A stretch of DNA of 64,000 nucleotides from Fimbriimonadales bacterium (lineage in GTDB: Bacteria; Armatimonadota; Fimbriimonadia; Fimbriimonadales; GBS-DC). Below are positions 59,731 through 63,995 of the stretch, in pieces. Below the pieces are notes generated by a model that saw nothing but the letters and a program-made list of their open reading frames with translations, made no database searches and was not told where the DNA came from. The stretch lies in NCBI GenBank assembly GCA_026003075.1, contig BPGO01000008.1:62001-126000 (forward strand), in the 5' to 3' direction. Position 1 is the first letter of the stretch; the number at the start of each line of letters is the position of its first letter. Position numbers and translations under genes: made by a program.

Positions 59731-61086
59731 TTATTTCTCGCGCCCAAGCTCGTCCAACCAGTTGCGAATCATCTCTAACGCTTCGGGGTTGAAGGTCTCC
59801 TCGATCTCAACATACTCGGTGATGAGTCCGGTGCGTGCTTTTTGGAACAGGTGGTTCAGCCCGGGCAGTTTTCGAATTGTGATGCGTTTGTTGCCTCCGT
59901 CGCGCAGAGCGCGCTCAATGGCGGGCAGGTTTTGGTCGGGGTCTACTTGCAGGTCTAATTCGCCGTTGAGCGCCAGCACGGGGCAACGCACTTTGCGCAA
60001 GTAGGGCGCCGGGTCAAGTTGCACGAAGGTTCGGAACCACGGGGTGGTGTAGCTTTTGGCTTGGGCTTGGAATCGGGCTTTCTGGGCGTCGGTGAGTTGC
60101 GATGCCTCTACGCCCAGCGATTGGACAATTGCCTCATAGAGGGCTTGTTGCGCTTTGGCGTCATCCTTTTCGCGCTTGAGGATTTCAAACACGCGCTGCT
60201 GCAATGCTCGATTGCGCTGGATTAGCGGCTCGGCGAGGTTCGATTTGCGGGCGATGAGTTCCGCCTGACGGTACAAAATTTGCTCGCCTGGCACGCCCGT
60301 GCCCGCCAGCAGAATCAGGAACGCCACATCGCGCGGGGCTTTGGCGGCGGCGATGGCGGCGACCAGAGCGCCTTCGCTATGCCCCAGCAAGCCGATGCGC
60401 TTACGGTCAATCTCGCGGCGGGTTTTGAGATAGTTCACCGCCGCGAGGGCATCCTCGGCGAAATCGAGCGTGGTCGCACGGCTCATGTCGCCGCCAGAAC
60501 CGCCCACACCGCGGTCGTCCATCCGCAGCGTCGCATAGCCTGCGCGCGTCAGGTAGTCCGCCAGCACCAAGAACGGCTTGTGTTCGAAAATTTCCTCGTC
60601 GCGGTTCTGCGCCCCCGAACCGGTGAGGAACACGATTGCAGGGAATGGCGGCTTGCCGTTGGGGAGCGTGAGCGTGCCCGCCAGTTCGATTTTGGCTTTG
60701 CGGTTCGGCACGCGCACCTCTTCGGTTGTGTAGGGGAAAGGCGGCTTCGGCTCTTGAGGGCGTTTGCGGGCAGGCGGCTCGCCGGGGGTGAGGGTCAGTT
60801 TCCACTCACCCCCACCCTGTTTCCAGAGACCTTCCAGGCGTTTGCCGTCCTCGCTGAGCGTGCCCACAAACTCGCCTGCCACCGCCTCGGAGCGGAGGGT
60901 AATCTGCCTGCCCGCCGTCTCGACCGCGCTGACGGGGATGCCCCGCGCGCCCTGGTCAGGGCTATCGGGGGTCGCTTGCCATGTGCCATCTGCGTTGCGC
61001 CGGATACGGAACACGATGCGCAGTCGCTGCGCGCCCGTGTCCAAGACCCCCGACCAAACCCCCTCGAAGGCGGTTTGGCGTCTCAT
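59731..61086 (-). CDS. Alpha/beta hydrolase with N-terminal beta domain
   Basis: 451 aa. Residues ~5-105 form a small beta-rich domain ([21 protein letters not shown]). Then the hydrolase: oxyanion region [12 protein letters not shown], nucleophile elbow [12 protein letters not shown] (Ser ~232), Asp in [11 protein letters not shown] and His in LPGLNHLFQ. It resembles esterases/acyl hydrolases with a lipocalin-like lead domain; no signal peptide is seen, so it may be cytoplasmic. Its ATG overlaps the guaB stop (ATGA). Confidence 0.87.
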
Positions 61087-62543
61087 TCTTCGCCTCCTGT
61101 CCAGTAGTTGGGTGGTTCGCGTGTGATGGAGACGCTATGCGGGTGGCTCTCGCGTAAGCCAGAGTTCGTGATGCGAATGAATCGCGCTTTTTCACGCAGT
61201 TCTTGGAGGGTGCGTGCGCCGAGATAGCCCATTCCCGAGCGCAGCCCACCCACCAGTTGGTGAACGGTCTCGGAAAGCGGTCCGCGATAGGGCACGCGCC
61301 CTTCTACCCCTTCGGGCACAATCTTGCGCGGGTCGGTCTGGTAGTAGCGGTCGCTGGAGCCTTGACGCATCGCGGAGACCGACCCCATGCCGCGATACAC
61401 TTTGTAGGCGCGATTGCGGAAGATTTCGATTTCGCCGGGCGATTCCTCGCAGCCCGCCAACAGGTTGCCGAGCATCACGGCGCTGGCTCCCGCCGCGAGC
61501 GCTTTCACGATATCGCCCGAATAGCGGATGCCACCGTCGGCAATGAGGGGCACACTGAGCCGCTGCGCTTCGGCGGCACACTCCATAATCGCGTAAAGTT
61601 GCGGCACGCCCACTCCTGCGACCACGCGCGTTGTGCAGATGGAACCCGCGCCCAGCCCAACACGAACCGCGTCCGCGCCCGCCTCTACCAGCGCCCGCAC
61701 GCCCTCCCGCGTCGCCACATTCCCCCCTATCACCAACATGTTGGGCAAGGCGCGCTTGATCAGTCGTATCGCATTCAGCACCCCTGCCGAATGCCCGTGC
61801 GCCGAGTCCACCACAATAAAGTCCACGCCTGCATCGGCAAGGGCACGCGCTCGTTCCACAGGCTCACGCATCGGGCCCACCGCCGCCCCCACCACCAGTC
61901 GCCCGCGTGAGTCTTTCGTGGCGTTCGGATGCTGACGGATTTTGAGCAGGTCCTTAATCGTAATCAGCCCGCGCAACTTGCCATGTTCATCCACAATCGG
62001 GAGCTTCTCGATTTTGTGGCGCTGCAGTATCTTTTCCGCCTCTTCTAAGGTCGTGCCCGCAGGCGCAGTAATCAGGTTCTCGCAGGTCATCACTTCCCGA
62101 ATCGGGCGGTCGAAGTTCGTCTCGAATCGGATGTCGCGGTTGGTGAGAATCCCCACCAAGTAGCCGTCTGAATCGGTAATGGGCACGCCGGAGATGTGAT
62201 ACCGTTCCATCAGCGTCAAGGCGTCACGCACGGTATGGTCTGGCGAGAGATAGATGGGATCCCAAATCACACCGTGTTCGCTCCGCTTCACGCGGTCTAC
62301 TTCCAACGCCTGCTTCTCGATGGGCATGTTGCGATGGATAACGCCCACACCCCCCTCCCGCGCCAAGGCAATTGCCATCCGCGACTCGGTTACTGTGTCC
62401 ATCGGAGAACTCACAATCGGGATACGCAGCCGAATATCGCCCACTAAGGTTGTAGAGACATCCACTTGATCGGGCAGCACTTCGGAATGGTTCGGTAAGA
62501 GCAACACATCATCAAAGCTGAGCGCCTCAGTCAACTCGTGCAT
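61083..62543 (-). CDS. guaB: Inosine-5'-monophosphate dehydrogenase
   Basis: 486 aa. FDDVLLLP (~9), two CBS domains (~95-210), the catalytic Cys loop [15 protein letters not shown] (~300-314), the flap with [15 protein letters not shown] and [12 protein letters not shown]. It oxidises IMP to XMP in GMP synthesis. GGAGG is 8 nt before the ATG at 62543; 15 upstream codons in frame were rejected. Confidence 0.96.
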
Positions 62544-62584
62544 GCGAAACGCCTCCGTGAGGCTAATTGTACCTGATGACATAT

Positions 62585-62712
62585 CCAAGCCGCCTCCAGC
62601 GAACGTGCACTTGTCGCATCCCGTTCACTGAGTCGCCAAACGCATCCGTTATCGGCACATTCACGCTTGAGGCGTTAATCCCTGCCAAATCCCCACGCAG
62701 GTTCCAGTGTTG
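62585..62712 (-). pseudogene. Remnant of an RHS-repeat protein
   Basis: In one minus-strand frame the DNA reads HWNLRGDLAGINASSVNVPI then [18 protein letters not shown], which matches the RHS pattern HWNxRGDL...DAFGD. It has no start or stop of its own. The gap 62544-62797 holds this fragment and nothing else I can name. Confidence 0.5.
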
Positions 62713-62797
62713 CTAAGCACCCTCACACGGGTACATCACACCATCATAACCATTACACACTGGCAGGTGCAGTTTCGCCATCTCATCTTGCGCCATC

Positions 62798-63103
62798 CTA
62801 ATCCTCTTTCGCAAAGCGAGACCATCTACCATATCTCAAGCCAAACCAGCAAACCAATATCACAGCCATTGCCGTGAAAAAGTTAATCGTGTTGCGCCAG
62901 TCACGCAATGAAGGCACATACCCGCTTGCTTCTAAGGCGCGAAGAGCTGTCGCGTAAGCCATAACCCCTACTGATAAATCACCAAGCAATACTCTAAAAT
63001 TCCTAAACTTTAGTTTGACAAAAGTATAGATTATACTCGCTGTGCCGACCAAAATCATCAGTAAACCTCCAGCACAGCAAAGACCACTCAAAACATCGCG
63101 CAT
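62798..63103 (-). CDS. Small membrane protein, candidate RHS-toxin immunity protein
   Basis: 101 aa with three hydrophobic helices (~8-30, ~40-58, ~70-92) and a basic-acidic tail. GGAGG is 7 nt upstream; it begins 19 nt after the stop of the RHS tip, the usual place for an immunity gene. It shows weak similarity in plan to the 63690 protein (FxGxAxxI...RFKAR, similar C-terminal WSRxxK). Confidence 0.6.
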   Translation of the reverse strand: MRDVLSGLCCAGGLLMILVGTASIIYTFVKLKFRNFRVLLGDLSVGVMAYATALRALEASGYVPSLRDWRNTINFFTAMAVILVCWFGLRYGRWSRFAKED

Positions 63104-63122
63104 GATCGTATCACCTCCACTC

Positions 63123-63702
63123 TTATTGTTCTATCCAGTCTGCTACATGCTTTGCCAGAAATATACTGCCTACCGTGACCAAACCAACCCCAACCAAAGC
63201 CGGCCCAGCCGTCACAGCGCCAGCGGCTAACACCAATCCAGCGCCAATGACAGCTATGTCTCCTATAACTGTACCGAGATTTTCTAAGGTATCGTTACCA
63301 GTCACGGAGCCAACACCACTAATTACATACCCCACTACACCGATTCCCGAACATACAGCCCCTGCGCGAGCTAAATGGGGCGCAAAAGTACCCGTCGATT
63401 CTCCCACCCTGACGAGCCAATCAATAATGCCTTTGAGAAAAAATTTCCCACTCGGATCCACCTTATTCACGGGGTCATTCACGCAATACCCATACGCATT
63501 CAGCGTGAGCGGGAGCATACAGCGAACCCAGCCACGGGTCTTGCTGCAGGAACCTGCCCACCGCAGGGTCGTACCAGCGCACGCCGACCTTCACCAAGCC
63601 GCCCGTCTCGGTCAGCTCGTTGCGATAGAGCCACGCCCCGTTCCCATGATGAAAAATTATAAGTGCCAAAGTAATCAAACCATTGTTTTTTATTTCTTCC
63701 AT
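63123..63702 (-). pseudogene. RHS core end plus hydrophobic C-terminal toxin-like tip, one frameshift
   Basis: The N-terminal piece carries the RHS core ([20 protein letters not shown] then PWLGSLY); after an extra C at ~63511-63513 the next frame gives [23 protein letters not shown]. The following ~105 residues are new and largely hydrophobic (VVGYVISGVGSVTGND, IAVIGAGLVLAAGAVTAGPA). RHS proteins deliver variable C-terminal toxins, and hydrophobic tips may attack membranes. Most of the N-terminal YD-repeat barrel is absent, so this is an orphan tip. Confidence 0.65.
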
Positions 63703-63995
63703 CGTGACCAGCTACCAGAACGGATGCTAAAAGGAAGCAAAAAGAAAACCACTGTCCACAGGGTGACTCCCACGAGGACCACCAGCCATTCACTCGTTGG
63801 AATGCCCCCACTTTTGAGGATTGCCCATGTCCCCGCCAACATAGCTACTACCGAAAGCACGGAGTCCGCTACGAAAACTTTTTTATCGGATGCACGCGCC
63901 TTAAATCGTATCACCAGCAGTATCTGGTTCGCTATGCCAAGAAAAACTACGAACAGCCCCACTATGAAGAGAGCATCTCGGAGTGCCTCAGTCAC
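63690..63995 (-). CDS. Second small membrane protein, candidate immunity protein (may extend past the window)
   Basis: 101 aa from a GTG at 63995, near the window edge, so the true start could lie beyond. It has three to four hydrophobic helices (~8-28, ~42-60, ~68-90) and ends GSWSRWKK, like the WSRFAKED end of the 62798 protein. It overlaps the RHS-tip ORF by 13 nt. It may belong to a second tip just outside the window. Confidence 0.55.

Follow-up and report, generated by a model that had tools for sequence, protein, structure and literature searches.

Organization of the locus

The window is a stretch of 64,000 nucleotides corresponding to C8:62001-126000 (BPGO01000008.1) of a genome of 2.6 Mb that is assembled in 18 contigs and 84% complete. 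At its right edge, imm1, an RHS core end, tip B, imm2, a decayed piece of RHS core, and the IMP dehydrogenase gene follow each other on the minus strand (Table 1). All four elements named in the original prediction, i.e. an RHS remnant, two immunity-like genes, and a core end with a hydrophobic tip, are present at the coordinates given there. The description of the tip needs partial revision, as the hydrophobic sequence indeed follows the core but comprises 107 instead of 105 amino acids after the DPSG motif, and a frameshift prevents core and tip from forming one open frame. Likewise, the lower GC content ascribed to the array applies to tip B (50.2%), imm1 (50.3%), and imm2 (44.6%) when compared with the window (58.5%), but not to the core end (63.1%).

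Table 1. Features of the RHS array and of repeats associated with RHS arrays. Positions are those of the window unless a contig is given.
Feature	Position	Strand	Basis or remark
imm1	63690-63995	-	ORF; 101 aa from GTG; frame open to 63998
RHS core end up to DPSG motif	63447-63644	-	TIGR03696; DNA matches; alignment of 14 copies
Tip B, hydrophobic C-terminal sequence of 107 aa beyond DPSG (with stop)	63123-63446	-	
Ribosome-binding site of imm2, GGAGGTGAT	63110-63118	-	sequence
imm2, small membrane protein, 101 aa	62798-63103	-	ORF
Spacer and RHS core piece containing a stop; decayed beginning of another cassette, broken off ahead of the core end	62604-62797	-	
Array edge, start of homology to relatives (IMP dehydrogenase leader)	62544-62575	-	alignments to six relatives
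IMP dehydrogenase gene	61083-62543		conserved start at 62543
Copies of a transposase-like repeat	C1:52.5-53.3k, 56.7-57.6k, 538k; C9:69.6-70.4k; C4:195.6-196.5k		

The RHS gene to which this cassette can be assigned adjoins the window. It is located at C8:126400-128766 and encodes at least 788 aa, its 5' part being lost at the contig end; its own tip, tip A, is encoded at C8:126051-126371. Thus, the full order is main RHS gene with tip A, imm1, orphan core end with tip B, imm2, and decayed cassette. The parental gene is longer than the orphan cassette and located upstream of it on the same strand, which is the arrangement typical of orphan modules, and the predicted presence of orphan cassettes beside a full RHS gene was borne out just to the right of the window. 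Since tip A lies outside the window and resembles tip B, imm1 is paired with tip A and imm2 with tip B. We therefore consider imm1 the probable immunity gene of tip A and propose that imm2 encodes the immunity protein of tip B. The two small membrane proteins beside the tip are homologous, as anticipated, but imm1 does not go with the tip in the window and could not be assigned from the window sequence, which does not include tip A. The element in the window is almost certainly an orphan RHS cassette, and the right edge as a whole is probably where an RHS polymorphic-toxin locus with displaced cassettes has its 3' end.

About 60 bp separate the remnant from the IMP dehydrogenase gene. An array at this position is peculiar to this genome, because homology to six relatives starts at positions 62574-62577, and the relatives' DNA upstream of the IMP dehydrogenase leader is unlike that of the window. 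The array stops at this leader (62543-62603). As the relatives carry different upstream DNA, the upstream neighbour of the IMP dehydrogenase gene has changed repeatedly.

The hydrophobic tips and the small membrane proteins

Amino acid identity between tips A and B is 58% in an alignment that includes the core end, 54% when most of the tip is compared, and 48% for the entire tip alignment. Their DNA is 51% identical, and that of the two core ends 94%. The tips differ at 86% of synonymous sites, which corresponds to saturation, with a dN of 0.48. To judge from these sequence comparisons, the tips are old and the cores were kept alike.

Tip B has a GRAVY of 0.95 and contains hydrophobic stretches between residues 28 and 102. 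The structure model consists of four helices and is weak (mean pLDDT 62.5); within this limit, tip B displays several hydrophobic helices of membrane-spanning length and no enzymatic domain. Searches of Pfam, NCBIfam, PADLOC, and PDB with the sequence gave no match, and a fold search of tip B and imm2 against the PDB, done with low-confidence models, returned nothing significant. Tip B matched no known pore-forming family by sequence or fold, and glycine-zipper triplets are missing from both tips (0 found; 1.6-2.0 expected in shuffles). Scans of the genome contig collection with the tip and of viral contigs with a tip profile were likewise without a match. Weak tip matches in other genomes of the phylum turned out to be unrelated ORFs (transporters, a hexapeptide-repeat protein, repeat proteins, and spurious frames), the sole exception being that in G028 described below.

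The imm1 protein is hydrophobic (GRAVY 1.0) with a charge of +6, and its GTG start is preceded by the ribosome-binding site ATAGGAGGGAAAC. The ribosome-binding sites of both imm genes are strong, and none was found upstream of the possible starts of tip B, a distribution of start signals that is typical of orphan modules. Imm1 and imm2 are 28% identical (BLASTP E 5e-7; shuffle z 10.7), and within their own genome each is the only other match of the other. The model of imm2 shows three long helices and is also weak (mean pLDDT 65.2). For neither protein was a significant family match found in Pfam, NCBIfam, PADLOC, or, by sequence, the PDB. Weak Pfam matches (MerT, Got1, PgpA, COX14) stayed below the cut-off, as is usual for short hydrophobic proteins. 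Two further small membrane proteins encoded in an array on contig C1 were considered as kin of imm1 and imm2 and dismissed, as their z was at most 2 against shuffled controls.

RHS core ends and their frameshifts

TIGR03696 (Rhs_assc_core) matches the window on both sides of the frameshift, i.e. in the 63478-63702 frame (E 8.6e-7) and in the 63126-63518 frame (E 1.7e-4). Owing to an indel of one base near position 63506, the core (ORF 63475-63702) and the tip (ORF 63123-63518) are read in different frames. The core end of the main RHS gene is frameshifted as well, by an indel of its own, and neither C8 tip is now fused in frame to its core, a state that the original prediction had not anticipated. 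As the core ends are frameshifted, tip B looks silent as it stands.

The DNA of the core end matches 16 further places in the genome with 78-95% identity over 100-270 bp. In an alignment of 14 copies, identity is high up to DPSG and gone directly after it, and the sharpness of this boundary between core and tip is again characteristic of orphan modules. Indels are present in six of the 14 aligned core ends, mostly at differing positions, and 4.6 kb of nearby non-repeat DNA compared with G160 showed no frameshift in coding sequence. The indels fit decay of the repeats or their misassembly. Programmed frameshifting at the core was rejected because the positions of the indels vary between copies, which agrees better with decay or repeat misassembly. 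An identical extra base is present in two of the 14 copies, in one of which a second indel restores the frame.

The remnant matches, at 62604-62709, core sequence located beside other core ends of the genome. It is also 86-87% identical over 222-227 bp to junctions between imm2 and the next core in contigs C59 and C56 of bacterium HR15 (G172). Given that spacer and core after imm2 of HR15 show this degree of identity to the remnant, we interpret the latter as the truncated start of the next cassette.

RHS arrays of the genome and exchange of cassettes

TIGR03696 yielded 30 matches in the genome, 25 of them above the cut-off, in nine places; the frameshifted copy in the window was counted twice, which leaves about 29 core ends. 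These and the adjoining parental gene dispose of the possibility, raised with the original prediction as a counterargument, that the genome contains no RHS gene. Other members of the genus have 0 to 12 matches and HR15 has 24. The domains found in its other cassettes, i.e. barnase with barstar after it, Tlde1, peptidase M91, DUF4258, and a DUF2380 tip, mark the arrays of the genome as arrays of toxin and immunity genes. In one such orphan RHS cassette (C4:206557-207786), the tip is a barnase-like ribonuclease and the next gene encodes barstar.

The stretch that joins the end of imm1 to the core is found again at C1:541818-542084 (85% identity over 271 bp), where it is linked to a different tip. 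Moreover, a block of 1,754 bp reaching from core end to core end is present at C1:542836-544587 and C9:72710-74460 with 98% identity, and both copies contain the same tip and two downstream genes. The recurring junction and the shared block point to recombination through core ends, in line with the predicted recombination of the cassettes with RHS genes. A relative of the 1,754-bp cassette stands after imm2 in HR15. The cassettes at C5:45125-46452 and C4:209135-210461 are 99.8% identical, and one of them is located at a contig end; their identity results either from very recent copying or from an overlap in the assembly. A transposase-like repeat of ~0.65-0.87 kb (IS5-type by eye) is found at the edges of several RHS arrays, with some copies being broken.

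Relatives of the tip and of the small membrane proteins

G028, which belongs to another family of the same phylum, encodes an RHS protein with a homologue of tip B after DPSG (E 3.6e-5; 50% over 46 residues; shuffle z 11). About 100 bp past this tip lies a hydrophobic ORF of 111 aa, followed by another core end with another tip. Of 58 hydrophobic ORFs compared, this one scores highest against imm1 and against imm2, apart from the respective paralogue (shuffle z ~5); by BLASTP alone, its similarity to the imm family is marginal (E 0.07). Thus, imm1, imm2, and the ORF of G028 each follow homologous tips and are mutually related, the latter weakly by BLASTP. This suggests that tip and imm family are linked in a distant genome as well, although the link is weak on the imm side.

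A scan of the genome contig collection with imm2 gave a match in bacterium HR15 only, which represents another genus of the family. There, a copy that is 88% identical to imm2 is located directly before a core end; it lies at the start of a contig, and the upstream part, with the expected tip, is lost at the contig break.

Discussion

Orphan RHS and CDI cassettes have been studied best in Proteobacteria. The locus described here belongs to a little-studied phylum, in a genome with about 29 core ends in nine places and with cassettes that have visibly been copied between arrays. On the basis of its sequence, the system appears to be of a known kind, and its tip/immunity family new and without named relatives.

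The array resembles orphan cdiA-CT/cdiI and rhs modules of E. coli EC93, Dickeya dadantii, and Salmonella LT2 in that a fragment of the conserved core extends to a fixed boundary motif and is followed by an unrelated tip and an immunity gene (PMC3150448, PMC3967940). In both cases, moreover, the arrays lie downstream of a full gene, exchange takes place at the conserved part, and the immunity gene but not the tip has start signals. Tip fragments of orphan CdiA-CT/CdiI modules generally lack initiation signals and the immunity protein is made (PMC3150448), and in Salmonella an orphan rhs module was activated via recombination with the main rhs gene (PMC3967940). By contrast, the boundary reported here is formed by another RHS core, which ends in DPSG, the number of core ends per genome is very high, and the tip is unrelated to any named family found.

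Two further systems are informative with regard to the function of the tip. Tse5 of Pseudomonas aeruginosa is paired with the integral membrane protein Tsi5 and, like tip B, its RHS tip has hydrophobic helices, no recognised enzymatic domain, and a small integral membrane partner (PMC9637101). However, there is no sequence match, and Tse5 is delivered by a T6SS whereas no VipB gene was found here. CDI ionophores are helical membrane toxins, as is predicted for the tips described here, and CdiI proteins of one group share about 30% identity, a value similar to the 28% of imm1 and imm2 (PMC11630599). They differ in having a separate entry domain and a five-helix bundle, whereas no entry domain was recognised in tip B, which has ~107 aa and, in its weak model, four helices.

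As the sequence shows, tip A of the main RHS gene is succeeded by the probable immunity gene imm1, by an orphan core end carrying tip B, a relative of tip A, by the proposed immunity gene imm2, and by a decayed third cassette. We propose that the tips, once delivered by an RHS protein, act as small helical membrane toxins and depolarise the rival's inner membrane, and that the three-helix membrane proteins block their cognate tips in the membrane of the producer. Tip B probably constitutes a silent reserve because a ribosome-binding site is missing and the core is in another frame. The imm2 protein is probably made, given its strong ribosome-binding site, and would then protect against neighbours that carry tip B. 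We consider this explanation, with displaced RHS cassettes, membrane-depolarising tips, cognate membrane immunity proteins, and a silent reserve, likely as a whole. By analogy with Tse5/Tsi5 and CDI ionophores, a membrane-depolarising tip held in check by a membrane immunity protein appears the likeliest function, although the lack of any sequence or fold match and of glycine zippers argues against it. Pore or ionophore activity seems slightly favoured. It is tempting to speculate, at somewhat less than even confidence, that the tips form a compact (~107 aa) family of helical membrane toxins without recognisable entry domain or glycine zippers, each associated with a membrane immunity protein of three helices whose divergence outpaces that of the toxin. 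Recombination at core ends would have carried such a family from one RHS array to another in a member of the phylum without detected T6SS.

An explanation that retains the orphan RHS modules but dispenses with a pore is less likely, though the most probable of the alternatives. The tip might be a membrane-anchoring or translocation segment whose enzymatic part was lost, or a blocker of a membrane protein. In further tips of the genome, hydrophobic segments indeed stand before other sequence, and the missing glycine zippers and fold matches as well as the decay of the orphan by frameshift are compatible with such a role. However, tips A and B and that of G028, which are homologous, terminate at roughly corresponding positions, their hydrophobic part is not followed by an enzymatic domain, and a small membrane protein comes after each of them. 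The conservation of the protein in tips A and B in spite of differences at nearly all synonymous sites also speaks against this explanation.

We regard it as improbable that the array merely consists of decayed RHS fragments which now serve neither toxin nor immunity functions. The frameshifted cores in the window and in the adjacent main gene, the truncated third cassette with its stop, and the indels in several other core ends of the genome are what such decay would leave behind, but the frames of the tips and of the imm genes are intact, the latter have retained strong ribosome-binding sites, and imm2 has its 88% identical counterpart in another genus. Moreover, frameshifts in repeats may be assembly errors, and nearby non-repeat coding DNA has none in comparison with G160. 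Still less probable is the view that the small membrane proteins are bystanders unrelated to immunity. Chance similarity arises easily among small hydrophobic proteins, and imm1 and imm2 lack a family match; the linkage of tip and imm gene in three pairs, with similarity on both sides, and the lower scores of unrelated hydrophobic ORFs of the same loci against imm1 and imm2 speak against it.

If the tip is a pore former, it would represent an ionophore that is small, tractable, and supplied with ready-made specificity pairs (tip A/imm1, tip B/imm2, and the pair of G028). These pairs would be useful for studying how membrane immunity proteins recognise membrane toxins.

Delivery of the tips probably does not occur via a T6SS because no match to the sheath gene VipB was found in the genome (84% complete), and this route was set aside. 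Both in this genome and in that of a relative, the N-terminal parts of full RHS genes contain hydrophobic, leader-like stretches, which would fit Sec export.
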